64,000 nucleotides of DNA from Polytrichum commune. Its lineage: Eukaryota > Streptophyta > Polytrichopsida > Polytrichales > Polytrichaceae. The notes beneath the pieces are model-generated. The model did not search any database, had not been told where the DNA came from, and was given only the letters and a program-made list of their open reading frames with translations. The stretch lies in the NCBI GenBank assembly GCA_950295325.1, contig OX485804.1, forward strand, positions 22,754,001-22,818,000, given 5' to 3'. Positions 15,866 through 64,000 of this stretch are shown one piece after another. Made by a program: the position numbers and the translations under genes. Each line of letters begins with the position of its first letter. The stretch's first letter is position 1.

Positions 15866-18800
15866 ATGGCCGAGTCTAGACTTCAGAATCTCTTATTTTC
15901 ACCCTTAAAGGCAGACAGATCTAACTTTCTGGAATGGATCAATGACGCCAAAACAGTATTATGTGCCGAAGACTTAGCTAAAACTCTCACACATAATGTA
16001 CCAGAATCCTTACCCTCTACCCCAGATGATGAAGCTAATGTTGTTCCTCCTGTTATTCCCGAGGTACCTGCCGTATCCAAATGGCAAGCACTTGCACTAC
16101 TTCGTCACCACATGGACCAATCCCTTCGACTGCAGTATCTGGAGGTAGATGATCCAGCGGACCTGTGGACCAAATTACAAGCCCGCTTTGACCATCAGCA
16201 AGTCATTTTTCTCCCACAAGCTCGCACGGATTGGACGAATCTACGCGTTTTGGACTTCCCCGACTTCGCCACATTCAACTTTGAACTTCACCGCATCGTG
16301 GCGCAGCTCCGACTGTGCGGCCAACGCGTAACTGAGGCTGAGATGGTGGAGAAGACCTTGTCAACATTCCCTCCAGCCACGGCGATATTATCTCAACAAT
16401 ATCGGAACATGAAGTTCAAGAAACATTCGAACTTGATGTCACACCTGCTGCTGGCGGAGAAACACCAACAACTGTTGCTGAGGAATGCCGAATCCCGCCC
16501 CGCACGCGAAGTACATAACACAGCAGTTGCCCCGGATCATTCTACCACCATGGTAGAAGCGCACGCTGCCGAAGCCTCTAGAAGACCTCCTAAAGGTTCT
16601 TATCGAAAATCCTACCCATCTCACCCCGCAAGAGAGACGCGAGCCTATGGCAAGAGTGATGCGCATAAGGGGTATAACAAAAGAGATGAACACGTAAGAA
16701 GAGAACCCCCTAGGCCCCGAACCAACCAGTTTAAACCTAGGACCTTTACCCCTAGGCAATTCCAAGGCAACTGTCATAAATGCGGGCGTAAGGGTCATTT
16801 TGCTAAAGATTGTAGGGCCCCGTCTTATATCACCAACATGTATAGAGAACTCCAACAACTCCGAACCCAGAATAGACAGGCCTACAACTTTGAAAACCCC
16901 CATTCCAACCCCGCCCCGGATACCGACAACATTGAAAACTACATGACTATCTATGAGAAGCACTCATCCAACCCCAATGAGGCTCTCCTAGATAGTGCAT
17001 CAACCCATACTATCCTTACGAACCCCAAATTTTTCCATTTCAGAGGAAATGATGAACCCTGGCAACATTGTACGATAGTTACAATGGCCGGAAGCCGAAA
17101 TATCAGATTTCGGGAGGGCCGGGCAACGGTGATATTGCCCGGGGGATTCCCCCTCAATTGCGAAAGAGCAATGTACGCCCCAGACGCCCCGAGGAGCCTG
17201 ATCAGCTATCGGGATCTGAGGGCCAGGAATATCCACGTTTCTACTGCAGTGGAAAATGATGAAGAGGTTCTGGAGCTCAGGCAAGGGCTGATGATCCTTG
17301 CCACCGCGAAAGCGGGAGACGACGGCCTATATAAGATTGTCATAAATTCCCTTGACAATGAAAGCCCCGTCTCACTGATAGATGAGGAAGAGGTGTGCAT
17401 GGCTGCTTGGGCTGGAGACCCTGAAGTAATACGCCGCAACCTGGCGCAGGGAGTGTCTGTTGACACTAAAGCCAAGCCTGATTTATGGTATGAGAGGTTA
17501 GGACATCCGGGCACAACCATTTTTCGCCGGATGATTCCTTTGTTGAAAGGTCATAACCTAGTAACAGCAGATTCAGGAAAAACACATGAATGTGTTGCAT
17601 GTATTAAGGGGAAATACATCAAAAAGCCTTCAAAATGGAAATTGCCAACTGAATTACCTCCACCCCTTTATAGGCTTCATGGGAATATATGCGGACCTAT
17701 TAACCCACCATCAGGAACCTTCCGATACTACCTTGTGCTAGTAGATGCATCCGGAAGTCATTTTGAGGTCGCGCTACTCCCCACCCGTAATATGGCATTC
17801 CCAAGGCTTTTAGCGATCATCCTTCGCTATAGAAACCATTTCCCTGAACATCCAATTAAATATCTACGCATGGACAATGCCCAGGAATTTAAATCCCATG
17901 CTTTTGAGGACTATTGTACAGCAACAGGGATTGCATTAACTTACTCGGTGCCTTATGAGCATGAACAAAACGGGCTAGCTGAGGCATTCGTAAAGAAAAT
18001 CCAACTAATTGCTAGACCCCTGCTATTACATGCCAAATTACCTTCTAACATGTGGGGCCATGCCATGTTACATGCAACATCATTACTAAAACTGCGACCA
18101 ACCTTATTAAATATCCAAACCCCGCAAGAGCTGCTATCTGGGAGACCACCTGATATTTCCCATCTCCGAGTTTTCGGCTGCCAAGTCTGGGTACCCACAC
18201 CAGATCCACATCGACATACCATTGGCGCACACCGCCAAGAGGGTGTTTATGTCGGGTTTGACTCACCTTCGATTATTCGATACCTAAACCCTTTAACTAC
18301 CACCCTTTACAAAACCAGATTCGCAAACTCTCGCTTTATTGAAACCAAATTCCCAACCATAAACCTACCTACAATCCCAACCACCCTAAACTTTGGTGCA
18401 CCAGAGTCCTTAACTATGAACCCTGACCCCCCAACCTCATTACCCAACAAAGAAGTTATTAAACTTCTACAACTACGTCAACTGGCCGAATCCACCCCCG
18501 ACGGATTTTCATCCCAACCTAGGATAATACGCAACCCATTACCCGGGACAGGCCATATCCTACCTAGAAAACGACCTGAACCACATTTATTCGAATCCCA
18601 GCCATATAAACATCCTAAAATACATTATACAACCGAGTCTATTGACTCGATACCTGAACCTGACCCAAAAACCTTAGATCAGGCTATGACTAGGACTGAC
18701 TGGCCTAACTGGAAGGCAACAATTGAGACAGAATATGAATCTTTGAGAAAACATGGCGTTTTTGCAGAATTAGCCACAGATTTACCACATCAGCCCATAG

Positions 18801-20278
18801 GCCATAAGCTAATTTTCACCAGAAAGTTAGATTCTCAAGGAAATACCCTTAGATACAAAGTCAGACTTGTGGCCCAGGGCTTCACCCAAAGACCAGGTAT
18901 AGACTATGAGGAGACCTATTCACCTGTAATGGACACAGTATCATTTAGATACCTTTTAGCTCTTTCTGTCCAACTGTCCTTAAAAATATATTTAATGGAC
19001 GTAGTAACAGCCTATTTACATGGAAATTTAGACACAAAATTATACTTAAAACCTCCCCCTGGATTTCTGAAATCTACCCCTAACCCAAAACCTGGTAGAT
19101 TTTCTGGACTTAGAATCTGTAAAGCATTATATGGTCTGAAATAATCCGGGAGGGCCTGGTATCATCATCTGTGTCATTTCCTGATTGCCCAAGGCTTTGT
19201 TCATAATAATATATTACCTTGTATATTTACATATACTACACCTGCTGGCTTTGTCATTTTAGCTGTTTATGTTGATGATCTAAATATATTGGGAACACCA
19301 GAATTATGTACATATGCCCAACATATCCTCACCCAACACTTTGATATGAAGTACCTAGGCCAGACTTCTTATTGCCTAGGATTACAGATCCAATACATAC
19401 CTAATGGTGGCATCTTGTTGCACCAACAAACCTATACCCAGAAAATCCTCAAATCATTCAACATGGATCAGGCAAATCCGTTAGCAGCCCCGATGATAGG
19501 GCCTAGTAAGACTAACGATGATCCTTACCAACCTCGTGAGGAGGAGGAGGAGGTAGTTGATAAAACTGGGTACCTCACAGCGGTTGGTGCGTTAACTTAC
19601 CTTACAACCCATACTAGACCGGATATTGCATTTGCAACCAGGATCTTAGCTAGACATAGCCAAGCCCCAACTCAAAGACATTGGAATGGAATTAAACATT
19701 TGATGAGGTACTTACGCGGGACATTTGACCTTGGCTTATATTATCACAAATATGACCAACCAGAAATCAAGGGTTTTGCATATTCTGGGTTTAAGACTGA
19801 TGTGAATGCAGGAAAGTCCCAGACAGGCTACATTTTTCTAAAATGCGGTGCTCCTATTTCGTGGAAATCCACGAAACAAATTGTCACGGCCACATCAACG
19901 AATCATGCTGAACTTTTGGCGTTTCATGAAGCTGCCCGCGAGACTGTATGGCTAAGGACGATGGAAGGAGTTATGGACCAGCAATGCAAACTCCGAATTT
20001 TGAATCAGCCTACAGTAGTGTACGAAGACAACTCAGCATGTGTACGACAGATGGCAGCTGGGTTCATAAAAGCTGATAGAACTAAACATGTTAGCCCACA
20101 TATTTTTGGTTTCACTCAAGATCTGATTGAACAAAAACAATTAAGTATTGTAAAGATCAAGTCAGAAAACAATGTTGCTGACATGTTGACAAAAGCTTTA
20201 CCTACTTATAAATATAGGAAGCTAGTACATGCAGCTGGACTTAGAATGCTCCATGAATTAACCTCATCTGGTAATTAG
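15866..20278 (+). pseudogene. Copia Gag-Pol polyprotein with a nonsense codon and lost catalytic residues
   Basis: The frame runs from ATG 15866 to TAG 20276-20278, interrupted once by TAA at 19142-19144 directly after LYGLK in RT, where the family usually has Gln. Visible parts: Gag; CCHC zinc knuckle at residues 303-316; aspartic protease DSAS at about 376; GAG-pre-integrase HPG and CVAC; integrase core with the second Asp (RMDN) and Glu (QNGLAE) present, but HGN (residue 607) where HGD is expected for the first catalytic Asp; RT with YVDD at 19268-19279, after the stop; RNase H with FAY at 19781-19783, where the first catalytic Asp is expected. The protein would normally be cleaved into capsid, protease, integrase and RT. 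This copy cannot make them all, so it is a pseudogene that could at most be mobilised in trans. Confidence 0.93.
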
Positions 20279-28510: not shown

Positions 28511-31500
28511 CTATCCTTCATCTTCGTCTTCATCCTCGCATAAAACTATTTCATCTGGGTCTGTTACTGAGGATTTCAAACTAGACTCCAACTCATCCAC
28601 ATCATCAGGCAAACCTCCGTTCTCTTGGGCTTCTGAGTCGTCATCATCGAGAGGTATTTCATTCGGGTCTGCCTCTGCTACCCCTAAAAGTCAACAGCAC
28701 CTGGTGTCAAAAAAGAGTTTGTCCACTCCAAAATCATCCAAAGTTGGAGACAAAACTTCATATATGACAAGTATAGCACTTCAAAATTGCAGATTCCAAA
28801 TTCACCATTGGTCCGAGAAGTCTAACCTGTAGCTGGTAAAGCAACTGGAGGTTGCCCTGGAGTTGAATCTAAGGCATGGTCTAGGAGGTATGGTAGTTCC
28901 AACAGCTCTAAAAATGCCTCAGTTTGTGGGTTTCGCACATGACCTGTGTTAAGAACAGGCAAACAATTTGGCTTCAAGTTGACAAACGGACTCAAAATTA
29001 TAGATCCACTATAAATGACTGCTCTACTCTTAACCCTTAATTTTTGATGTTGATAATTGCATTTCTAGTCATTACTTATAAAAGTAACCCTTATTGAAAT
29101 ATTTTTATTCTCCCATAACAAAGTAAGTTGATATAGGATGAAAATATGGTCAGGTGACAGAATACAACAAACAATACTTTACACAATCAAGTATTTGTAG
29201 CCACCATTCCTACATATGATTATAGTCTTTCTTTCAAACCAATTTGACAGTCGTAGGTAAGTTGGTATTGAGCCTTGGGGCACAATCTCTCAAAGAAATG
29301 CCTTGCTATAAATTGCTTATGACTTATGTAACCAAATTCTTACACATGGGTTTCTATCATGTCAAGATGCTCAATTTAACTTCCAACTATATGGATGTAA
29401 TATATGTGATGTGTAACAAATTTTGTTTCAATATTAACAACATTGGAGCATTGAAAATCTTTAATTTTCAAAATCCACCTTTTGACCTTTTAAGGGCTAG
29501 ATTGGGGAACTTCCACTAGACATAGCTGTGGTATTGGTACTGTGTTGTTGAGAACCAACATCTCTTCATGACACACAATCCATTTATGGGTAATGACATA
29601 CCTGGAGACTGGTTTCCACCTCGTCCCCTAGGTTGGTTTGCCTGATAAGGTGGCACTGTCATCGTGAATTGTGTTGAAATGGCCGATCCTCTCTCAGCCA
29701 GTTGCTTTGTCACCCACTGACGATGTGCCTCCAAATTCAATGAATCTCTCCTACTATGAAGGATGTCAAGACAAAATGGAAACAACATTGATCATAGTGC
29801 AAAGATAAGGAAGAGGAACTCATGAAGTAAGCGTACCTGGTTCACACCTAAAAATGGTAAAACAAGTATCAAAATTTTAAAACTACTAATCAGGGTCACG
29901 AAAGCAAAGACTTCAATAATGTTGATCCAAGAGGTACACCATTTATGGTATTTAGTGTCACTGACTATTTGAAATTACACAAAGCTATAAAAAATTACAT
30001 AGAATATAAGCTTTTACCAGGAATAATGTTTATGTTCTACAATGTCCAACCATTCTCTTTGACCCTTGTTGGTAAAATGAAAACTACTGCAAGGATTTAT
30101 AGAATGGTGTGACTCTGAACAGTAAGTGACAATAAATACCATAAATGGTGTAGTATTTGGTGTACATGATTGTGTCATTAATATAGTTGATAAAGATATC
30201 TGAGAAATGCAATATCAAGGATGGAATAATACAGTTGCATTGGTCGCCGAGTCAAGGGAAGAAATGGGTGATATGCACGAGTAATGGTGAGCCAATCTTC
30301 ATCATGCATGAATTGCATTGGTCCAGCAGCTCCTGGTATGTCAATCACCTACACTAGTCCACAAAAACAATAAGAACAAGAGCTATCAATTTAAGATACT
30401 GCCAGTTCAGTACTTGAGATGTGGGAACATTCTAATTTTTTTGTAAAGGATTGCAATCAATTAGGAACCTTTTTATGAGTGGATGAATGCACCACTGGAG
30501 ACCCACAAAAAAACAAATAGTTGACATTGCCACTAGCAGAATATCACTAAAGGACAAAAGCAGAAAAATAAGTGGTACAGCAATATCTGTTAAAAGGAAG
30601 TTTGCAGGGGTAACCCACAAGCACCTGTAAAAACCTGCGATGAGGGAGGCATTTGTCAAGTGCCAAAAACTTTGTTGTCTTGTTGCTGTTAGGATGGTTT
30701 ACAAGAGCAGCAAATTTTGTGTGAAGATGCGCTGAAAACCAATAATCAGGCTTCAACTTATGCAGCAGCTCCTCGCCAGCATTGCTTCCCAGCCTATTTT
30801 CCATAATCTGTCAACATTGGAATAGAAGGTGAATTAGACCATCAACAACATGAGTTGTATGCTTTTTACATCTCTTTATTTCTGACACCAACTTAGGTCT
30901 TACTTCCACATCCAGAAAACAATGAGGTTTTTTCTTTTCTTTATCCAAGAATGTGGCTTGATTCAAGTTGGATACACAACAGATTACAAGTTCACTATAA
31001 TTTGAGTGTAAACAATGATAAATTTTCTGTGAGATCCTCTCAGACGTCCATGTGAATTAGAGTTTGTTTCCATGACATAAAAAGACAATCACAAATCAAT
31101 TTCCATATTCTGACCTCTTGTTGAAAGTACTGCTTATGACGAAGCAATTGTTGTACATCTCCATATTGTGTAATTCCGCGAGGCCAGTCATGTGAAACAA
31201 AAACATCAATTGCTCCTTCCAGTTGCATAAGTTTCTGCACTTCGTACTCCCTCACATGATAAATTGATCGTATGTCAGAATCATTGTACGGAACTCGTTC
31301 AAAGTGGCCTGTTCACCCAACAAGACAAGCAAGTAATCTCAACTTGCATTACTTGCAAAGGAGACTGCATCTCAACTTAAATGCCATATGTACCAACTCC
31401 TCATGGCTTACTTAAAGAGGAGAAAAAAAGAAAATTTGAGAAAGAGAAAGCTAGTATTGTAACAAGGAATTGCATTCAAGATGACTGATCCTGAACATAA

Positions 31501-36245: not shown

Positions 36246-38575
36246 TCAAGAGCAAGTTTTTGAGCAAGTGAAACTTACCATGTGGGGCCGTAAGTAACTC
36301 CTAACAGATTTCTGATGGCTCTTGTTTTCTGGCTGACATGGAGTTGTGATTGGATAATTTGCAATGTCGTCGTCTGTCCCAAATTCTTCGTCAGCCTGAC
36401 TCAATTTTTGGTGAAGCTTGGTCTTCTCCTTAACTTTTGGATGCTCTTTCTGCTGCGATCAACCTCCCAGTGACACATTAGTATGTCCATATTTTAAATG
36501 AGGTTCAACAGTAGTATAAGACATGAGACATGAGCAAATTTGAAACTCAATTTGTGTTTTTCTAGTGTGACATAATTGTTATGTCAACTTGATCAACTAA
36601 CCTTCAAATCACGCATGAGAATTTGTTCAATTGACAAGCCTACTTGTTCAACATCCCCCTTCCATTCTGTCCGCACTTTTTCCCTGCATCCAGTAAATCA
36701 ACATCAAATATACATTTGAAAATTCACAAATTCTAATTGTAGGAAAGTCTGAAATTTAGTGTCTGATGTTTTGAGTGTGAAGGGGACAAAAAGAGGAATA
36801 CCTTCTTCCTGGAGTTTTGTTGTAATCGTGCAAGGTCTGATCAGAGTCACTCGAGGTGCTCTTCAACTTTGAATTCGCAGTCTTTTCCAATTTCTCATAT
36901 GTAAGAACCAGTTCTTTGAGAGGCTCTGGATCACAAAAAAAACATTTCCACTCTTGCTTGTTGAGAATGCAAGCATGCATCTTGGCACCAAAGTTGCGGA
37001 CAATGCAAAGTTTACAAAATGCCTTATTGCATTTGTCGCACAAAACAAGCTCCCCACCTTCACCACACCATCGGCATTGCTCCTCACATCCATCCACATC
37101 CTGCAAATATTGCAACTTATCATAAATTTTTAATACAAGCCAACCTACCAATGGCTGCATTAGTGAAAAATCAACATTTCTCCAATGATCATAAGATTTT
37201 CAGCCAACATCTCATAACTAACCTTTTAGATTTTTCAAATTTAACCCCAAAAAATCAAAACACCAATCCTATGTTTGGTAGGCATCATTGCCATTGTCTG
37301 TTGGTTTCATGTGCATGATTGAATCGATGTGAAACCAGTGTTGATGCATGAAAAATGTTTCTCAGAGCACTTCTGGGAGTTCTGGGAGTATTCTTTATTT
37401 ATTCATTTTGCCACATGGCAGTCTCACATTGCTTGAGATACGTCCAAATCCCACATGGAAATTATACTTCGGCATCGAAAAAAGATGAACCAGGAAACAC
37501 CTTGGTACAAAAAGTTAGCCATATTCAAAATACTCAAATGAATTGAATGGATGAAAAACACCTTTGTGAATGGACCGCTGTAGAGGAAAATTTTGCACTT
37601 TTTGCAAATCCCCACTCCCAGTTGCGGGTGTTTCTGAATTTTGCAGACATGGATGTTATACCCGCACGTGGTGCATTTAAATATCTCCTCAACTTCTGAA
37701 ATGTTCCCATCCGAAGACAATTCCAAAGTTGGTTCAAGCGTCCCTGTACATCTCAAAATATTAAGTAATCAGCCTGGTTTTATGTTGAACCAGTGTTTGA
37801 TACATACTGTACCCTACTTTACAATTCAATAACTTTTTTGTGTGAAACCATCAACATTTATCTACAAGGTGATTTATAAAATTTCAGCCTTACAACATCT
37901 CAACACTCAACCTTTTAGGTCTTTCAGTTTCAGCCATAAAATAGAACACGAAAAGATTAAAATAGCAACCCTATGATTGATAGGCATTGATTCAATGTTT
38001 CTTGGTTTGATGTACATGACTGAATCAATGTGAAATCAGTGTTGATGATGTATATGAATTCAATGTCCGTGGTCTAAATTACCAGTATTCGCATTAGCAT
38101 CGAAATCCAAGACTTCAGCAGCATCCGAGTTTGACATTTTCTGGTCTCCAAACACGAAATCTCCAAGACTGTCGAAATCTTCGAAGTCGACATCACCACC
38201 AACATCTGATATTTTTACGGTGACATTATCCCTTGTAGGGGACTCGGATTTCTCCTCACACAACTCTTCCAGCCAGTTCTTTGGTTTCTCAAATGAATTT
38301 AGGTCATGTGCAATTTCTTCTTTTTCAGGCCTGGAATCGATGTAGGCTGTGGAGTCTGAGCTCGGAGTACTACTATCCAGTCCTGTCCCTACCCTTTTCG
38401 GAGGCATTGGCAATCGCTGCTTGGGTCTCTGCAACTTACATCCAACCAGAATGTGAGACGTGTAATATAAGATCCTCTTAAAATTAGTTTTCACTTGTTT
38501 TCAGAACTTGGTGTTTGTCAACGAGTTTTAGATTGAAGAAAGAGAAAATTTATGTGTTGAGAAACTTACAGCCAT
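36246..38575 (-). CDS. ADD-domain (ATRX/DNMT3-type zinc finger) protein, six exons seen, helicase absent
   Basis: CDS exons: 38575-38570 (ATG GCT), 38428-38083, 37743-37562, 37100-36802, 36683-36602 and 36449-36279, all in phase. If the last donor (ATG/GTAAGT at 36278) is not used, translation ends at TGA 36248-36246, giving about 373 aa. The ADD module is split over exons 3 and 4: a GATA-like finger CTTC...CKKC, then a PHD-like CRWC, LCDKC, FCKLC and CFFC series. The module binds the histone H3 tail in ATRX and DNMT3 relatives. Upstream is an acidic, Ser-rich segment; downstream is a charged, helical segment. An ATRX orthologue would continue into a SNF2 helicase, but no such exon is visible before DBR1 (33029). 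It may be a truncated ATRX-like gene or a stand-alone ADD reader. The 2-codon first exon is inferred. Confidence 0.75.
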
Positions 38576-45587: not shown

Positions 45588-46719
45588 CAGGCCATAAACT
45601 TGACACCCTAGCCAAATTTCCAGGGGACACCCTGTCCCAAATTTTGGGTGTCCCAAGGACACCCTGCTCCAATTTTTGGGTGTCCTCATAAATTTCTCTT
45701 AAATTTTTTTTTAGTCAAAATAGGTACAATTTTGAAAATATATAATATCATTTCAAAATTTCAATTAAAAATAAAAAAAATCACTACATATCATAACTTG
45801 CAATGCAAATCAAACCTACAAGCGGCGGCCTTTCATAGCACACCACTTTACCCATACTTGTTCAAAGACAATGGCCTCTATGGGGATTTTTGCCATTGCA
45901 ACTCTCATTTGTGCTTCCAAAGTCTCTAATACCAAACTACACCGTAAAGTAGATTTAATATGATTTTGAGTAGAAAATCCTCTCTCACAAGAAGCTGTAC
46001 TAGCAGGAATTACAAGAACAGCTTGCCACAACTTTGTCATATGAGGATATCTTCCAACATAGTCCAAATTGGAAGAATAAACCATCCAAGCTTGGTGCAT
46101 TTTAAGACCACCACATGAAATATGAAGTGTATCCAAAAAACCTCGAAGCTCTGATTTTAAACCACGCTCATCAAAAAGATTCCCTCCATTAGTGCAGAAG
46201 TGGTCAATGAAACTCTGAAGCCATAAACGAGCATTTTGATGAAGAAGTGTCAAGTCTATTGAGAAACAGACATGGCTAAATAGCTTAGCTGCATTGAAGA
46301 GCTTCAAATCAGGAAATCGTTGCTGCAATGATTCTATCACCTTAACCACATAGGCCTGTGCAATCACCTTGCACCCATGGAGGGTACCATCACCACCAAA
46401 CTCACCAAACGTGTGATTTTTTTCTTCACAAGTCACAATATGTGTCAATTTCTAGAATGTGCGTGTCAATTGACGTGCATTTTTTTTTTTTGTGCAAGTT
46501 TTTGTGTGTCAAAAAAGAAAAACTTGCAAAAACTTTGTCAAACATATACGCTGATAGGCCCTACAAGTACAGGGGACACCCTGAATTTTTTTTGGGTGTA
46601 AAAAGGACACCCTTGTAGGATTTTTGGGTGTCCTTGGGGACACCCTGTTTGAGATTTGGGTGTCCTAGGACACTCTAGGAAGCAAAATACACCCCCCAGG
46701 GTGTCAATTTTATGCCCTG
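45588..46719 (-). mobile_element. hAT DNA transposon, 1,132-bp internally deleted copy
   Basis: The left end CAGGCCATAAACTTGACACC and the right end (read inward on the minus strand) CAGGGCATAAAATTGACACC are inverted repeats matching at about 20 of 22 positions; CAGGG is a usual hAT terminus. Exact 8-bp target duplications flank it. Subterminal GGACACCC and GGGTGTCC words recur on both sides (45624-45683 and 46573-46670), as expected for transposase-binding sites. Inside is only the C-terminal part of a transposase. Confidence 0.95.
45816..46448 (-). pseudogene. hAT transposase C-terminal fragment (dimerisation domain)
   Basis: An open frame of 210 codons contains IPASTASCERGFSTQNHIKS and LEAQMRVAM, the hallmark of the hAT C-terminal dimerisation domain. 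The N-terminal BED zinc finger and most of the RNase H-like catalytic core are absent; the element is too short to hold them. It is a deletion derivative and could be moved only by a related active transposase. Confidence 0.85.
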
Positions 46720-54087: not shown

Positions 54088-55415
54088 TTCTGCGGAGTCT
54101 TTTGGTTCACCAGATTCTTCCGCCACAAGTTCACCCCTCTGCTCTCAAATATCCCAATATTATAAGTGAGAATCCATACGTATTCACCTCCATGATTGCA
54201 ACCAAGATTAACTAACTTACTCCAACAAGCTGGCCACAACCCCTGAGCCTTAAGTTTCAACTACCACAATCTAGTAGATTGTAAATCTTTACTTTTCACA
54301 GACTCCTTGCCAGAGCCCTAATTGACACACAAAGATTTTTCCTAATATCCCTATGTTCATTACTAAACCCAGGGACGAATCACCAGAGCCACGCCACTTG
54401 CAAGTTGCGCCTGCCAACCCGTGGGAAACGTTCAATTGAGGCAGCACCCCGGACGCTCCGACTACTAATTTTAGCTCCAGGGTGGCGTTCGAGGTACGTA
54501 TCTCGATTCCAAATTCTCTCAGAGGTAGATTACTATTATGAGAGCTAAGGTTGACGACACAGCTTGCCTGCCCTCCTCAACTGACTTCAACTTTGAGGAA
54601 AGCTTACAAAAACTCTCAACTTTCAAATCGTTCGCAACACACTGAACTTCTGTTGTGTCAAGATTGCAAAAGCCGAAGTTGAGAGCTTTGCGTACCTAAT
54701 TTGATACCGCAACACGGCCAGATTGCTCGCATGGTAAGTCTTCACAAAGGGCTAGTAGGCACACAATTCGGCAAACTGCCAACATCGGATCGAATGAAGT
54801 TGCAGGCCGGCACGGCGGATTGCTTTGGAGGGAGCTGGGAGGGAAGGGAAATCTGGAGTTTTGAGATTGACCCATTGACCAGCAGCGATCGGAGTCCATG
54901 TCGAGAAGTTTGTTTCTGTTGCGACAAATGCACCCTATGTTGCTAATAAATCTCACAAAAGGTTTTATCATCTCAAAGTCAAACCTTCGGCCTTCTTCGA
55001 GGTAAAGTTACGTGCTAATAACTCAACTTAACTTGTTAGCCCTTACTTTTTGGAAGGCCTGCGTGAATGGGCGGTGTGTATTTTTGACAAAGTTTTTGCA
55101 AGTTTTCGACATTTGACACACAAAAACTTGCACCTATAAGAATTGCACATCAATTGACACGCATAATTTAGAATTTGACATGTAGTGTGACTTGTGAAGA
55201 AAAAAACCTGACGTGACTTGACACAGTAGAAATTGAAATGACATGTGCTACTAGGCATGTGACATTTAGGTGATATTTCAAAAGAAAATGTAGATGTTTA
55301 TTGACGCTCGGTATTTGTTTTTGAAAATGTCACGTGACACTTTGGATTTGAAGTTGAATGCCAGATCAACTTTTGTCAAACATACACATTGAAGAGGTAG
55401 GTAGTGGGTACAACG
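54088..55415. other. Upstream region of the transporter gene and intergenic DNA
   Basis: No supported gene. Frames at 54696-54971 are open on both strands over a moderately G+C-rich promoter-like stretch, with no recognisable product. Confidence 0.5.
55070..55215 (-). repeat. Dispersed copy related to the interior of the hAT element
   Basis: On the minus strand it reads TTCTTCACAAGTCACA, TGTCAATTGATGTGCAA-like, GCAAGTTTTTGTGTGTCAAA and AACTTGCAAAAACTTTGTCA-like words in the same order as 46425-46545 on the plus strand. No hAT termini surround it, so it may be a fragment or another family member. Confidence 0.65.
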
Positions 55416-55877
55416 TGTCACGTGAGGTGACATCGGGGGCTAAGTCACGTCAATTTAGGAGTAAATGGACTCCACTAGGAGTCCATGTGTGTTGGGATGA
55501 GTAACGGACTCCATTGGGAGTCCTAGTTAGTTGTGCATCCACTCCATGGATGAACTCCACATTGGATTGGGGTTGTATGGAGAGGAAGGCCTCTTGACTT
55601 GCCATTGTTGTCAAGTCAAGTCTTGTGAGTGTGTTTTGAGAGAGAGAGAGAGCTTGTTGTTGCTTTCTCATGGCTATGGTGTAGTAGATTATGAGTAAAG
55701 CCTTTGCATTCTTTCTCCACCACTTGCACTCTTGGATTCTCCCTTCGTGGAGTGAGAGATAGCTTGACTCTTGTGTGTGAATTTTAGAGTTTCTTAAGCT
55801 TTGTAAGGAGACATTTTAGTTTCTTAAGCTTGGAGAGAGAAACCCTCATACTTGACAACAATTGTTCAAATTTTTCA
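55416..55877 (+). repeat. Candidate 5' LTR of the gypsy element
   Basis: Begins TGTCACGTGAGGTGACATC and ends AAATTTTTCA, which would be TG...CA bounds and 462 bp. It has LTR-like content (GA run, GAGTAAAGCCTTTGCATTC). The following TTTTTGGTTGTATTTCTGAGCCA only loosely resembles a Met-tRNA primer-binding site. Without the 3' LTR this cannot be confirmed. Confidence 0.3.
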
Positions 55878-57202: not shown

Positions 57203-60200
57203 ATGGTGCAAACTAGGAGCCGATATTATCGATCTCCATCACCAGATTATTTGGAAAACGTGCATACCACAAATCTTGAGCCAGAGGTAGATACCAACGA
57301 GGCTTTTGAGCCTATTTCGGCGTTGGACACTACTAATAGGCTTCGGATTTGGAGTGTCGGCACGTTCGACGACATGGAGGACGATCGCCACAATTCAGTG
57401 CGTGATCGGTTTTCAGGTCGAGCTGGGGGCATTTCCTTGCCCGATTGGAAACTCCGGTTTCGTACCTGGATTAAGGAGAAACGCCAAAGGTCTTCCAATT
57501 TCAATGATTGGTATGCCTTTGAACTTCTGCCTCAACATTTGGAGTATGAGGCACTCCAAACTTACGAACGATGGACAGAGGGTCATCAGCGACAACTTCG
57601 GGAGGTGGAGCAATATTGGGAGGCCCGGGTTGAACTTATTTCAGCCCTTAAAGATGGGGCGATTGCCACCTTAGCTCCATCTACCTTAAAGGAGGAGGAT
57701 CCACTGGAGGAGTCTGAGGACCAAGAACTGGCATTTGGGCCAATGGTGGCTGGCAGTAGCACGGCTACCCTTTCACGGATGGCACGTGCTACACAGGCAG
57801 CATTGACGGCTGTTGGTCCACCACCTCCATTTAATCCCCTTACAGAATTTGTCGCACATTTGGAAGTGGAGTATGGTGGGTTTCGGCGAGACCAGATGCA
57901 GCGCATCCAGGATTTCCGCCGAGAGAAGGATGATACTCCACGGACCATGTATACGCGACTCGCGCGATTTGCTGTGGAGTCGGGAGGTGTTTTTGCTGAG
58001 AGTCAGCTTGTTAAAATATTTTTGTCTAAGATTGACAAGCGGCTACTTGAGTTGGCATCACCTCGGATTATCCTCGACTACGAGGGCCGAGCTACGCTCG
58101 CACAAGCGTTTGCCGTGGTTGAGAAATGTGATCGGGCTCTTTGCCAACATGATGCCACGGATATGGTATCTTGGATGACAGAGAGTCCGAAACCAAGAAG
58201 AATTGTCACAGCTACTAGCAGTTTAGCTGAGACTCAACCCGTCAAGGAGCAAAAGATTTTGCATTGTTGGGGTTGTGGAGAAGCTGGTCATTCGAAGAAT
58301 GATCCCAATTGTCCTAAGAAGAAGAAAACTCAGCCTTTGGGAAAATTCAAACAAAAGATGGAACCAGTAAGGGCAGGGGACAATTCTAAGAAGAGACAAT
58401 TGAAATGTAGCCATTGTGGTGGCACTAATCACGATGTGGATCATTGTTTCCTACTTCATCCTGAGATGCGGCCTGCCAGTTATGTCACTGGAAAGTCTCT
58501 AAGGGAGCAGAGTCTTGAGGCTAAGGTGGCAGAGCTTGAGCAAAAGCTCAAATCTTCTGCATCTTTTGCTCAAATTTCTGAGCCGCATGTGGGTGGTGGC
58601 ACCTCGGGTTCGGACATGTATATGTTTGGAGCAGCTGGAGAGGTGGTGGCGGCGGCTTCTACTCGCTCACAAACATTGGCAGATGCGGTGGCTTCCACGA
58701 GTGGTGGTAGCAACGAGGTGCTACATCCTCGCCATGCCGGACCAGCTGATCAAATTGGTCAAGCACGTTTACCTCTTTCATTTGGATTGGTAGACACCAC
58801 TGTTGTTGGGGCTAAAAACCCTGTACCTTTGAGAGATGGGGATTCCATCTCGAAGGATGTTACGCAGGCATTGGCATATAAAATTCTCCATATGCCAATT
58901 TTCTCGGGTTCGGAGTTTATGGCTTCGGATTTCAAGCCTGCTGCAGTTTTTCATTTAGCTGGGAGAATGTTAGAAGGTAAGGCGGATTTGCCATCCCTTC
59001 AAGTATCCCAAGCTGTGGTTGACGTACCTGTGGCTGAGGAGGTGGAGGACTTAGCCAATTTGCGAGCGAGTCTTGCGGATGCGGCGATCATTGCTTTTGG
59101 TAAGCAAACTGATATTCCTCCAGCATCAATTTCAGCAGTGGATACGTCATTTTCGAATTATGCGTCAGGAGCGGCATATCTTGCAGACATTTCTGCAAGG
59201 CCTGCTCGCGAACGGCATAATTTGCAACCTGGAGTTGTACGGCTGATGAACGACAAATCTTTGTTTGTCGTTTCACGCACGGATATGCCCACTATCCGTG
59301 CTACACCACTGAAAGTTATGATGGATTCCGGTGCTCAACCGGTTATGATTGGCAAAGGACTCGCTGACAGTCTTGGATTGACGCCAGCAAGCTTGGATCC
59401 TTGTCCATTCACTATTGTGACTTCAGTAGGGGGCACTGAACGTGCAACAGGTTACACCAAGGCACCTCTACGTTTGATTTTTCATGTGGGGGCAGGGCCT
59501 ACTTACACTCATTTGTCAATGAAGTGTGTTGTTACTAATGCTACCAACTATGATATACTTGTTGGTCAGCAAGCTCTTTACCCACTTGGCTTTGGTTTGG
59601 ATAATTGGACGGAAGAGGCATGGATTAGACCAGGATGGTCCACTGGAGATGGCAGGAAGGTATTTATTCCCGTCACATTTGCAGCCACTGCTATGACTAT
59701 GGTTGCGGAGGCAATGTTTGGTTGCAGCGGTTTAGTTGCAGATTTGCCTTGTGCTCCAGTTTTATTGGAGGAAACAATGGACTACACTTGTAATGCGGCA
59801 GAACAACAATTTTTACTATCTTTTCAAATTCCTGCTCGACATTTCAAGGATCCAACTCCACCATGGCGAACTCCTAAGGAGTTATCCGACCATTGTCGAC
59901 ACATTGTAGCGGATTTGGAGCTTGGAGAGGCACCCCCAACTTCATCCTCATTTTCTTTTGCTCAACCCATTCGTTGGCAACCATCACCTGAAGGTATTGT
60001 CCTTGTGGAGATCTTTGGAGGCATTGGCACAGGTTTGGCGGCAGTGTTGGAAGCTGGAATTACAGTTCGGCGATATATTCATGTGGACAATGGGTATGCA
60101 GCCAACAGAGCCGTCCGACATCACATCCAACAATTGTTGTTGAGATACCCCGCACAATTGTCAGCCTCTGCCATTCATGGATGTTGTGGTCAACTTCCTC

Positions 60201-61300
60201 AAGATGTCACTATGATTAGTGATGAGGATTTGAGAAGGTTGGGCCACGTGGATTTGATTATTGCAGGATGGCCTTGTCAAGGCCATTCGCGGGCAGGAAC
60301 TGGCCAAGGATTGGATGATCCTAGGTCTAGTTTGTTTGCGGATTTGATGCGCTTGACGCAATGGTGGTTTACCCACCAATCAACTCCGCCAGGGTACATT
60401 TTCGAAAATGTACCATTATTGGGTGATACCCGGCACAAAGTGGTGAAGGATAGTGAGTACATTAACCACAATCTGGGTACTCCAACATTTCTGGATGCTG
60501 CATCTTTGGGATCCTTTGCTCATCGGCCTCGTTGGTTTTGGACCAACTTGGTATCACCTCGGGTGCTTTCAGTGGCGATTGCCCTCATTCCCCGCCTTAT
60601 GGATCGCAAGGTGGATGACATTTTAGATGATCATCGTGTTTCCTTGGCAGTTACCAAGGATGACACCTTGCCATTTGCATTAATTAACAAGGTGGGAATT
60701 CCGAGAGGTGCACTACCTACTTTTGTGACATATCCACAGTCTTTTGCATTTCGATCTCGTGGACCTGGCATGGTTTGGGATTCAAAATCCCAAACTTATG
60801 AGGAGCCTACGGCAGATGAGCGGGAACGCGCCATGGGTTTTCTTACAGGTACCACAGCTGCTCACGGGCTTCAGGAAGGTCAGAGACGTTTCCTATTGGG
60901 GCAAGCTATGGATCTTAATAGCATTGTGTGGATAATTGGAATTTGTCTTGCTGCTCAACAACGTATGGATGACCAATTGCTTACTCTGAGGGCAGAGAAC
61001 AATGGTCAGGGGGCAATGGAGCCGCAATCCAAGGATCACATTGAGGTCAATGATACCGAGGGATTATTTCCTTTGAAACTTCATGTTGCGGAAGAGCTTC
61101 GAGCCCAACGTGTTTTTTCAGCTTTGGCCCAAGAGTTTGGGAAGTTGGAGGCCCATAAAATGTTTCCACTTCTATTTCTTGGTGATACTTTATATGTGGG
61201 TAGCTATTTAGCTACACAAACTGATTGTAGTGGAGAGGATACGCATTTGGATTCAAGTGCAGATGATGGGGGCAAAGGTGTTGCCCTCTCCACGGACTAG
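57203..61300 (+). CDS. Gypsy Gag-protease polyprotein fused to a C5 DNA methyltransferase, 1,365 aa
   Basis: From the N-terminus: capsid-type Gag (about 1-330); a CCHC-like knuckle CWGCGEAGH...C (about 355-370, long last spacing) and a second, CSHCGGTNHDVDHC (about 402-415); a short coiled coil (about 435-460); retropepsin MMDSGAQ with Asp 708; then a methyltransferase from about 930 to 1255. Its motifs are I VEIFGGIGTG (about 934), IV AGWPCQGHS with catalytic Cys 1025, VI FENV with Glu 1068, VIII AHRPRWFWTNL, IX ADERERAMGF and X LLGQAMDLN. The enzyme should transfer a methyl group from S-adenosylmethionine to cytosine C5 in DNA. AHRPRWFW recalls DNMT3 (AHRARYFW), whereas PCQ is the DNMT1/bacterial form. 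Host Gag-Pol proteins lack such a domain, so it is an acquired cargo. Start: ATG after a stop-free leader end; first ATG of the frame. Activity is inferred. Confidence 0.93.
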   Translation: MVQTRSRYYRSPSPDYLENVHTTNLEPEVDTNEAFEPISALDTTNRLRIWSVGTFDDMEDDRHNSVRDRFSGRAGGISLPDWKLRFRTWIKEKRQRSSNFNDWYAFELLPQHLEYEALQTYERWTEGHQRQLREVEQYWEARVELISALKDGAIATLAPSTLKEEDPLEESEDQELAFGPMVAGSSTATLSRMARATQAALTAVGPPPPFNPLTEFVAHLEVEYGGFRRDQMQRIQDFRREKDDTPRTMYTRLARFAVESGGVFAESQLVKIFLSKIDKRLLELASPRIILDYEGRATLAQAFAVVEKCDRALCQHDATDMVSWMTESPKPRRIVTATSSLAETQPVKEQKILHCWGCGEAGHSKNDPNCPKKKKTQPLGKFKQKMEPVRAGDNSKKRQLKCSHCGGTNHDVDHCFLLHPEMRPASYVTGKSLREQSLEAKVAELEQKLKSSASFAQISEPHVGGGTSGSDMYMFGAAGEVVAAASTRSQTLADAVASTSGGSNEVLHPRHAGPADQIGQARLPLSFGLVDTTVVGAKNPVPLRDGDSISKDVTQALAYKILHMPIFSGSEFMASDFKPAAVFHLAGRMLEGKADLPSLQVSQAVVDVPVAEEVEDLANLRASLADAAIIAFGKQTDIPPASISAVDTSFSNYASGAAYLADISARPARERHNLQPGVVRLMNDKSLFVVSRTDMPTIRATPLKVMMDSGAQPVMIGKGLADSLGLTPASLDPCPFTIVTSVGGTERATGYTKAPLRLIFHVGAGPTYTHLSMKCVVTNATNYDILVGQQALYPLGFGLDNWTEEAWIRPGWSTGDGRKVFIPVTFAATAMTMVAEAMFGCSGLVADLPCAPVLLEETMDYTCNAAEQQFLLSFQIPARHFKDPTPPWRTPKELSDHCRHIVADLELGEAPPTSSSFSFAQPIRWQPSPEGIVLVEIFGGIGTGLAAVLEAGITVRRYIHVDNGYAANRAVRHHIQQLLLRYPAQLSASAIHGCCGQLPQDVTMISDEDLRRLGHVDLIIAGWPCQGHSRAGTGQGLDDPRSSLFADLMRLTQWWFTHQSTPPGYIFENVPLLGDTRHKVVKDSEYINHNLGTPTFLDAASLGSFAHRPRWFWTNLVSPRVLSVAIALIPRLMDRKVDDILDDHRVSLAVTKDDTLPFALINKVGIPRGALPTFVTYPQSFAFRSRGPGMVWDSKSQTYEEPTADERERAMGFLTGTTAAHGLQEGQRRFLLGQAMDLNSIVWIIGICLAAQQRMDDQLLTLRAENNGQGAMEPQSKDHIEVNDTEGLFPLKLHVAEELRAQRVFSALAQEFGKLEAHKMFPLLFLGDTLYVGSYLATQTDCSGEDTHLDSSADDGGKGVALSTD

Positions 61301-61306
61301 CAATCA
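61298..61306 (+). promoter_or_regulatory. Possible leaky stop codon: UAG CAA UCA
   Basis: The stop ending the Gag-Pro-MT frame is UAG followed by CAA UCA, fitting the CARYYA context that makes tobamovirus UAG leaky. Pol continues in the same frame (zero shift). No ATG-led alternative for Pol is obvious. A UGA 111 nt downstream (61412-61414) argues against simple function in this copy. Confidence 0.5.
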
Positions 61307-61414
61307 CAGGTTGTGCTGGCACCAAGTGGCAATCCTTCTATGAAGAAGGAAACCACGGAGTTTGACGATTGGCCAATTGAAGTGGGGCCAAAGCTTACTG
61401 GTACCGAAGCATGA

Positions 61415-64000
61415 AAGGTACGGGCATTTATTCGCTCTTACCGTAATTGTTTTGCCTTTAGTCTTCATGATCTTGAAGGATATAAAGGTAAACCTGTTCG
61501 TATTCAACTCGAGGACGACCACCCTATTTTCAGACGGCCGTACAGACTTAGTACCTCTGAAAGGTTGGGTGTTCAAACTCGATGTCAAGAGTTATTGGCA
61601 GCGGAATTGATTGAACTCTCCAATGGAGAGTATGCTTGTGCCACGGTTATGCCGTCAAAGAAGGATATCTTTGGCAACTGGACGGAAAAACGGATGTGTG
61701 GTGATTATCGTCCAGTCAACCGCAAGACCAAGTCGGATCGATATCCAATGCCGATGCCGGAGGAGTTGTTTGATGCACTGGGATTTTCTAGAATCTTCAG
61801 CACTCTGGATTTGAGGTCTGGTTATCATCAATTACCTTTGTTGTTGGGTGATCGGGTGAAGACCGCATTTTGGGGAATTGATAAAGATGGCAAGGATCAA
61901 CTTTATCATTGGAAATTTCTGCCATTTGGTCTCAAGAATGCACCAGCTGAATTCCAGCGGGTGATGGACCAATTATTGGCTGGTTTGCCGTTTGCTAGAT
62001 GTTACATTGATGATGTTATCATCTTTAGTAATAGTCCACAGGATCATGTGAGACATTTGCAAGCGGTATTTGAACGACTTCAACGGTGGGGACTCCGTTT
62101 ACATCACGGTAAATGTAAGTTTTTCCATGATCAATTGCCCTATTTGGGCCACATGATTGTTCCTGGCGGTCTTGGTGTGCAACAGGCGAAGGTGGATGCT
62201 TTGCACAAAATTCCCGCACCTAGTGATGTACCACGGCTTCGTGCATTTCTAGGATTGGCAAATTATTATAGGAGGTTTGTCAAAAACTTTAGTTTGATTG
62301 CCAAACCTCTTACCATTCTCACGGGGAAAGACCAACCATGGATTTGGAGTCGGGAACAACAACAGGCATTTGATACATTGAAGCAGAGGCTCGGTTCAGC
62401 GCCAGTACTTCGACGCCCGGATGTGTCTAGAGCTTTTCAATTGCACACGGATTGGAGTGCAGTGGGATTGGGAGCGGTATTGACACAGAAAGATGAAGAG
62501 GGAAAGGAATATGTGGTGGCTTATGCATCTAGAAGCAATAATAGTGCTGAATCTAATTATTCTTCTTATGAAGGCGAGGCCTTGGCGGCCGTTTGGGCCA
62601 TTGCACATTTTCGACCTTATTTGTATGGGCAAAAGTTTACTTTGGTGACTGATCATCAGCCTTTAAAATGGCTTATGGAATCAGATAAGCTCACCGGGAA
62701 ACTTGCTAGGTGGGCATTGTTACTTCAGGAATATGATTTTGAAGTTGTTCACCGAGCAGGAATTGCCAACTTGGATGCAGACGGATTGTCTCGCAATCCA
62801 AGTCCTTCAGATGAGGATTTAACTGGAGCTAGGTGGCATGGAGATTGTGATCGTGAGGCAGTGCCGGGTTGGCATGCTGCCACATATCTCACAATGATGT
62901 CGGGATTGGCTGCTGAGATCCTTGTAGAAGAACAGGATGAGGAGGTTAATAAATCTCTCGTTGTTAGTGATGTGTGGGAAGACCAGGCGGTCTTGCACAA
63001 ACTTCAACAAGGGATATTTCCTCTTGGACTATCTGCTATGGAGCGAGATAGAGTTAGTCACAGGATAACAAGGTTTCGTTGGGCAAACAGCTTGTTATTT
63101 CGTGTGTGGCCGAACGGAACGAGGCGCATCGTTCCAAGGCCAGATCAAAGAGCTTCTTTGGTGCGGCAAGTGCACGAGGAGCTTGGACATTTTGGAGTGC
63201 GAAGGACACACTCTATGTTGCGCAACCAATATTGGTGGACTGGTATGTATCAACAGGTTTCCGCTTATGTTTCTAGGTGTGAAGTATGTGACCGGGTCAG
63301 GTCAAGTTTTAATACTTTATCACCTCAACTTCAACCTTTACCTATTATGGGCTTGGGATATCGTTGGTCTTTGGATTTTGCCGGACCGCTTACTATCACT
63401 CCACGTGGCTCCAAGTATGTGCTTGTGATGGTGGAGCATTTTAGTAAGTGGATTGAACTCGTGGCTCTTCCCCAAAATTCCTCAGAATTGGCGGCTATGG
63501 CATTTCTTGATCGAGTTTTGGCACGGTTTGGAGCACCTGCAGAGGTGTTGACGGATCAAGGGAGAGAATTTCTTGGATCTTTCGAGGCTTTGTGCACCAA
63601 GGCTTTGATTGATCATCGGACAACTTCCAGAGATCACCCTGAGGCAGATGGCTTAGCTGAACGAGTTGTTCAGACGGTTAAGCGCGGTTTGCGGAAGTAT
63701 GGATTGCTTCATGGCAACCATCGCGATTGGGACTTGATGTTACCATGGATAGCAATGGGTTATCGTTTCAGCAGGCAAGCATCTTTGGCATCCTATAGTC
63801 CTTACCAACTCTTGTATGGACGGGAACCAATTTTACCTAGCTCAGTGCGAGAGATATTGGCTCCCGTGGTAAACTTGGACGATCCAGATGTTTGGGCTCA
63901 ATGTCTTCATGACCGAGCAGCGTTCTTCCAAAAGGCCATGCCTATGGCTATGGAGAACTTGAATATTGCTCAACATCGTGATACATTACGGTATGCCCGG
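61415..64000 (+). CDS. Gypsy Pol: reverse transcriptase, RNase H and integrase (partial, open to the window end)
   Basis: Same frame as 57203-61300, open from the codon after TGA 61412-61414 to 64000 with no stop. RT includes LDLRSGYHQL and YIDD at 62003-62014. RNase H has HTDWSAVGLGAVL (near 62446), the EGEALAAVWA Glu and TDHQPLKWL. Integrase has the HHCC finger (ELGHFGVRRTHS ... CEVCDR, 63170-63295) and core residues in WSLDFAGPL, LTDQGREF and HPEADGLAER (63365-63665). All catalytic acids are present. It converts the RNA genome to DNA and inserts it. Expression would need passage through two stops (TAG and TGA) or a separate start. The C-terminus, any chromodomain and the 3' LTR lie beyond the window. 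Confidence 0.9.

Follow-up and report, generated by a model that had tools for sequence, protein, structure and literature searches.

Why a retrotransposon would carry the writer of its host's own silencing mark is a question that the available text of PMC5890265 leaves open. A stretch of 64,000 nucleotides from the moss Polytrichum commune (assembly GCA_950295325.1, contig OX485804.1, forward-strand positions 22,754,001 to 22,818,000), referred to here as the window, raises the same question in a land plant. A first-pass annotation of the window had identified a Ty3/gypsy retrotransposon with its own cytosine-5 DNA methyltransferase (C5-methyltransferase) domain. The present analysis supports that reading and places the methyltransferase on the Gag side of a conserved, readthrough-type stop codon, which is the strongest new point. 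With a high-copy moss family, near-identical copies, and relatives in Marchantia, Sphagnum, Calypogeia and Closterium, the question becomes testable in land plants. Production of the enzyme at the level of Gag would make the particle and the complementary DNA (cDNA) within it the expected site of action, which would narrow the hypotheses.

The methyltransferase domain and its place in ORF1

The first open reading frame (ORF1; 57203–61300, forward strand; 1,365 aa) was delimited from the ORF list and Pfam. It encodes Gag, a retropepsin and a DNMT3-like methyltransferase and ends in TAG, bearing out the 1,365-codon frame with a retropepsin DSG that had been annotated. The retropepsin region (59168–59602, forward strand; DSG stretch at 59318–59341) was recognized by eye and by a Pfam match that is weak (E = 1e-3) and under the cut-off. 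The annotated Gag zinc knuckles are visible by eye as a pair (58265–58447, forward strand). The knuckle at 58406–58447 is a canonical CCHC with CX2CX4HX4C spacing, and the one at 58265–58312 is unusually spaced; Pfam reports no zinc-knuckle family in ORF1 at E ≤ 1.

The DNMT3-like domain spans residues 921–1250 (59963–60952, forward strand) as judged by Pfam, PDB matches, a structural model and motifs. Comparison of the ORF1 product with the C5-methyltransferase family profile, which the annotation had suggested as a check, gave a match to PF00145 over residues 1000–1112 (E = 8.8e-12, 45.5 bits against a cut-off of 22); the absence of a hit, which would have spoken against the annotation, was not observed. 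Cys1025 (PCQ), Glu1068 (ENV) and the AHRPRW motif VIII (Arg1108 and Arg1110) are all present where they had been annotated, and the motifs follow the canonical order I, IV, VI, VIII, IX, X.

A single-sequence search of the PDB returned DNMT3A as the best match (3e-8), and a profile of nine sequences ranked DNMT3A (1.1e-23) above DRM (1e-13), DNMT2 (6e-9) and HhaI (1e-8). An AlphaFold model of the domain was calculated from 26 alignment rows (pLDDT = 86.8, pTM = 0.87). When this model was submitted to Foldseek, DNMT3-family entries made up all of the best 50 of 201 matches (E ≤ 0.001), with target TM-scores of ~0.75–0.81 for chains of catalytic-domain length. From the PDB profile search and these best 50 matches, the sequence and fold are nearer to DNMT3 than to other families. 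The domain is confidently predicted to adopt the DNMT3 fold, and the identity of the element's methyltransferase is near certain. Two other types were considered and rejected. A restriction-type methyltransferase of bacteria is disfavored by HhaI and HaeIII scores that fall far under those of DNMT3. DRM is a plant derivative of DNMT3 with rearranged motifs, VI–X preceding I–V; since the motif order of the moss domain is canonical, this arrangement is excluded.

The fold and motif order are like those of animal DNMT3A and DNMT3B, to which the moss domain is ~20–23% identical in the structure alignment. DNMT3 couples its catalytic domain to a PHD-like (ADD) histone reader. Unlike animal DNMT3A and DNMT3B, the moss element has its PHD finger on a different polyprotein segment, past the stop codon.

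To follow the domain across copies, 40 loci (L025–L064) were sampled, comprising approximately every third row of a PF00145 search of the genome together with three loci selected as intact. All 40 retain the catalytic Cys, the sample itself having been selected through matches in the region of the PCQ motif. The Glu is kept in 39/40, the first Arg of motif VIII in 39/40 and the second in 36/40. In four database relatives of the element (P0026, P0030, P0033 and P0036), a Glu replaces the Pro that precedes the catalytic Cys (WEC or PEC).

The stop codon before Pol and the copies in the genome

As annotated, gypsy Pol shares the frame of ORF1; however, a TAG stop stands between them. An alignment of copies and a published motif identify its surroundings, TAG CAA TCA (61298–61306, forward strand), as a type I readthrough context. 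In plant viruses, UAG-CARYYA is known as the type I readthrough motif (PMC5382211); the available text of PMC5009743 contains neither CARYYA nor any of three variants. The motif is present in 37 of the 40 sampled copies (36 by alignment, L050 by eye), the position being unreadable in L037, L043 and L056. The 36 alignable copies have CAATCA (14), CAATTA (15) or CAGTTA (7), and L050, at 46% domain identity to the window copy, has TAG CAGCCA. Seven full copies chosen from the genome all conform to CARYYA, with CAATCA, the hexamer of the window copy, in five, CAATTA in L022 and CAACCA in L020. There are four hexamer variants among the sampled copies and a fifth among the full copies, and the variation is confined to the R and Y positions even in L050. 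The count of 37 in 40 does not represent a probability, since members of a single family are not independent observations. Because the methyltransferase precedes the stop, it belongs to the Gag side, and from its sequence context the stop before Pol is probably leaky.

The genome searched was the 407.8 Mb assembly, in which seven contigs (C1–C7) hold ~406 Mb; a set of seven chromosomes would be in keeping with Polytrichaceae. The search for further copies proposed with the annotation, performed with the domain sequence, found the domain in at least 121 places (121 scored of 585 candidates), all 87–100% identical. Seventeen of these 121 matches sit in an open frame of 1356–1386 aa with no stop inside the match. 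The PF00145 search scored 123 of 353 candidates, a figure that counts domain matches and not elements. Among the 40 sampled loci, 13 are at least 90% identical to the window domain, 21 are 62–67% identical and four lie between, while L050 and L056 are 46–48% identical. Two main subfamilies and a third are distinguished.

Comparison of the L022 subfamily with the window copy gave a nonsynonymous divergence (dN) of 0.255, a synonymous divergence (dS) of 2.28, which is saturated, and a dN/dS of 0.11 for the DNMT domain. With dS again saturated, dN/dS was 0.13 for the protease, 0.04 for the reverse transcriptase (RT) and 0.05 for the PHD finger; dS for Gag, RNase H and integrase was not computable because of saturation. 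The DNMT domain is under purifying selection between the subfamilies and, from these ratios, evolves about like the protease and faster than the RT.

These data also bear on whether a host gene was captured by chance, or joined in assembly, in a single copy where it has no function. Such an origin is scarcely credible. No support was found for it, and it is opposed by the number of places, the two main subfamilies and the third, the purifying selection, and the relatives in liverworts, Sphagnum and Closterium. A chance join shared by no sibling had been named as the finding that would overturn the annotation; sibling copies carry the domain, and a chance or assembly join is therefore rejected.

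Element class, Pol and relatives

At its left end, the element is preceded by a 4-bp target-site duplication, AACG (55412–55415), identified by eye in the flanks, and begins with a 440-bp terminal repeat A (55416–55855, forward strand) that is repeated on the right side of 6/6 close siblings. A second repeat, B (~107 bp; 64769–64875 on the window's scale), follows pol beyond the window, and the right copy of the duplication lies past B. The order A-coding-B-A-B was found in 7/7 full copies, the left repeat lacking the B part. Repeat A is ~440 bp in most of them, longer in L012 by an internal duplication and 334 bp in L022. All eight copies examined (the seven full copies and the window copy) have a 4-bp target duplication in flanks read by eye, and the two ends of the element read TGT...ACA, as from a DDE integrase. 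The repeat A pairs of the full copies differ by a Kimura two-parameter (K2P) distance of 0–0.006, three copies having no substitution; the pair in L014 has 23 gap columns besides. Since the seven were picked for long open frames, the estimate of youth comes from a biased sample. From the near-identical repeats and target duplications in these chosen copies, the family is recently active in the moss.

The gypsy-type order of protease, RT, RNase H and DDE integrase is confirmed. Two identical full long terminal repeats (LTRs), as is usual for Ty3/gypsy, are not present since the left repeat lacks B. The element is placed in Ty3/gypsy despite its split repeats because of its coding domains and target duplications, as was KnitGypsy. 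A DIRS element was rejected, as the integrase is of the rve type and takes the place of a tyrosine recombinase.

From Pfam and sibling alignment, pol encodes RT, RNase H and integrase (H2C2 and rve) from 61301 to 64000 on the forward strand and continues to 64442 on the window's scale, where the frame ends in L009, the continuation beyond the window. After the integrase, L009 encodes a C-terminal PHD finger (PF00628, E = 1.6e-10). The same module is found in six of the eight database relatives that reach the integrase, and the remaining two stop inside the integrase. The top PDB matches of the PHD finger are CHD4, PHF12 and PHF21A, and UHRF1 and ATXR5 rank further down; several of these PHD proteins read unmodified histone H3. 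Chromoviruses are Ty3/gypsy elements with a chromodomain on the integrase. The moss element shares with them the gypsy RT-RNase H-integrase, with an integrase whose C-terminus bears a chromatin-reader module, and differs in its PHD finger, methyltransferase and split repeats. Assignment to the chromoviruses was rejected, a PHD finger being located where the chromodomain is expected.

The window copy is defective. It contains an additional in-frame stop early in Pol, at a place where 6/6 siblings examined have none, and it is missing the right-hand A-B repeats. It consists of A-coding-B only, yet is flanked by a perfect AACG duplication (55412–55415 and L009:1876–1879). Recombination between two B units would give this short form; alternatively, the copy may have inserted as such.

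The closest known kind of element is KnitGypsy-Dnmt3 of Klebsormidium nitens (de Mendoza 2018, PMC5890265), compared here by its published description and not by K. nitens sequence. The two are alike in the gypsy domain set, a DNMT3-type domain that is free of introns and has its motifs unrearranged, purifying selection, and the repeat order A-coding-B-A-B, which is DIRS-like with gypsy coding domains (PMC5890265). They differ in that the KnitGypsy-Dnmt3 domain is in the Pol polyprotein ORF (PMC5890265), whereas the moss domain is in the Gag-protease ORF before UAG-CARYYA. KnitGypsy-Dnmt3 is described as having fewer copies than in Symbiodinium (PMC5890265), while the moss family has more than 100. 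The moss integrase has a PHD finger, of which there is no mention in the available main text of PMC5890265. Retrotransposons with their own C5-methyltransferase also include SymbioDIRS-Dnmt3, a DNMT3-like type with CG methylation activity in yeast, and SymbioLINE-Dnmt, both of Symbiodinium (PMC5890265). These differ from the moss element in their tyrosine-recombinase or LINE machinery, and their capture is considered independent in PMC5890265.

Among the matches listed, named relatives of the moss element come from Marchantia polymorpha, Sphagnum fallax, Calypogeia fissa, Sphagnum troendelagicum and several Closterium strains. Identity reaches 99% among the matches listed (P0108). No Klebsormidium record was among the matches listed in either relative search, and six peptide patterns searched against IMG/VR viral contigs led to four stretches, none of which was confirmed. 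One sequence that is 73% identical to the domain (P0039) is filed under a bacterial metagenome-assembled genome (MAG; Candidatus Obscuribacterales); a plant contig was probably assigned to that genome during binning.

Trees of the DNMT and RT from the same 15 elements agree in their best-supported groups. One is a clade in which the domain lies between RNase H and integrase (P0030, P0033, P0036 and P0037 in both trees), an arrangement also seen in P0031, which is outside the trees. The second unites the window's subfamilies, represented by five rows. Support is weak at several deep forks. The domain may have been captured once, long ago, and later moved, or it may have been captured twice.

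Gypsy elements with a DNMT were previously known from one charophyte, and the suggestion in the annotation that the moss element extends a known phenomenon is upheld, the range now reaching mosses and liverworts. DNMT3 in retrotransposons, called LTR Copia and DIRS, has been reported from streptophytes and dinoflagellates (PMC12344493). The open-licence PMC literature, which covers few subscription papers or preprints, yielded no earlier report of such elements in mosses or liverworts. There are none from bryophytes in the available text of PMC12344493, PMC10538959, PMC10952607, PMC8566409, PMC11540031, PMC8616336 and PMC9861306, or in that of PMC6453930, a paper on moss DNMT3. Of six names for such elements, any use within the open-licence literature searched was in PMC5890265 only. 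Against this literature, four features were not found in print: occurrence in land plants, high copy number, location on the Gag side of a readthrough-type stop, and the PHD tail.

A proposed role for the enzyme and the surrounding window

The sequence features make it reasonably probable that this is a recently active moss Ty3/gypsy family in which a DNMT3-like enzyme, placed before a leaky UAG, would be made at the Gag level and methylate cDNA. Most ribosomes would terminate at the UAG to give much Gag-protease-DNMT, and a few would read through to give little Pol; termination at a leaky UAG would thus put the methyltransferase at the level of Gag. The enzyme could then be packaged into the particle and methylate the double-stranded cDNA of the element before integration, while the PHD finger would probably steer the integrase toward a chromatin state. 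The methylation of cDNA is the weakest step of this combined reading. A broader proposal, which can be offered only tentatively, is that of an old streptophyte gypsy lineage whose particles would be assembled from a Gag-protease-methyltransferase precursor, surrounding the nascent cDNA with many DNMT3-like enzymes. These would set the methylation of new copies before integration, the PHD finger would pick the chromatin and the leaky stop would fix the dosage, so that the element would determine its epigenetic state from the outset.

A number of observations weigh against the combined reading of a Gag-level enzyme that methylates cDNA. The relative P0026 (2358 aa) has no stop at the corresponding place. 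Within the first clade, the two trees conflict, at moderate support, over which of P0030 and P0037 branches outermost (92/89 versus 91/87). KnitGypsy DNMT showed no activity in yeast, a result termed inconclusive by its authors (PMC5890265). A hunt for siblings free of the DNMT scored 150 RT rows of 1501 candidates. On inspection by eye, ~26 rows were without a DNMT partner, and 12 of them were retrieved, six mainly because their Pol frames were open. Three of the 12 (L066, L071 and L072) are without most or all of the domain. L066 retains just the last 80 domain residues, beside an open Pol frame, and in L071 and L072 the domain was not found in 1.2 kb taken at the expected place. The domain is present in the other nine, interrupted in several by stops or frameshifts, and after this check an amplifying DNMT-free sibling was rejected as a candidate.

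Also against the proposed methylation, no CG-specific mutation footprint was found in C/T differences between copies or in CpG observed/expected ratios. The C/T differences per C were 0.073 (CG), 0.084 (CHG) and 0.058 (CHH) in subfamily 1, and 0.124, 0.130 and 0.091, respectively, in subfamily 2. The lowest values in both subfamilies are those of CHH, which is the context of moss (Physcomitrium) DNMT3 (PMC10952607, PMC8566409). CpG observed/expected is 0.62–0.77 for the element, close to the 0.67 of a copia ORF in the window and the 0.58–0.60 of two other window stretches. The C/T pattern fits ordinary plant methylation, with no sign of CG-specific self-methylation.

The same pattern enters into a different view of the enzyme as a brake, put forward in PMC5890265, in which it would draw host silencing onto new copies, lower transposition and spare the host. 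The higher C/T differences at CG and CHG than at CHH in both subfamilies are expected under plant-type silencing; however, host methylation alone predicts the same pattern, and the high copy number and near-zero repeat divergence of the seven chosen copies are unlike strong self-restraint. A brake is therefore considered unlikely. The domain may instead have been retained for the handling of RNA or cDNA, through structural binding or RNA methylation, and not for 5-methylcytosine on DNA. The location of the enzyme on the Gag side together with the zinc knuckles would suit this function, as would copies without a context-specific footprint, and RNA methylation was raised for the LINE type in PMC5890265. 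This too is improbable, given that most sampled copies, as well as distant relatives, retain the catalytic residues, and that the top matches are DNMT3-type de novo DNA methyltransferases, far above the tRNA methyltransferase DNMT2. Methylation of cDNA by an enzyme made with Gag is the preferred reading.

The rest of the window contains a Ty1/copia element, from gag to RT in two frames (15866–20278, forward strand; Pfam RVT_2, gag_pre-integrs and Retrotran_gag_2), and a remnant of a hAT transposase dimerization region (45816–46448, reverse strand; PF05699, E = 2.8e-8). No tRNA gene was found by ARAGORN, and no Rfam family reached its gathering score, in the 64-kb window. Two reverse-strand exons were recognized by eye: one at 31043–31312 resembles the RNA lariat debranching enzyme DBR1, and one at 36759–37199 has an ADD/PHD-like cysteine pattern, CRWCGEGGELVLCDKCNKAFC, that is ATRX-like. 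Lastly, a GABA-transporter-like gene lies at 48.2–51.8 kb on the reverse strand, and its matches place the host among the mosses. In the best 120 of 1217 matches, its joined exons are 80% identical to Ceratodon purpureus, the highest value among the named ones, compared with 53–61% for Sphagnum and 48–56% for named vascular plants; by E-value, a longer Salix protein ranks first, with 52% identity.

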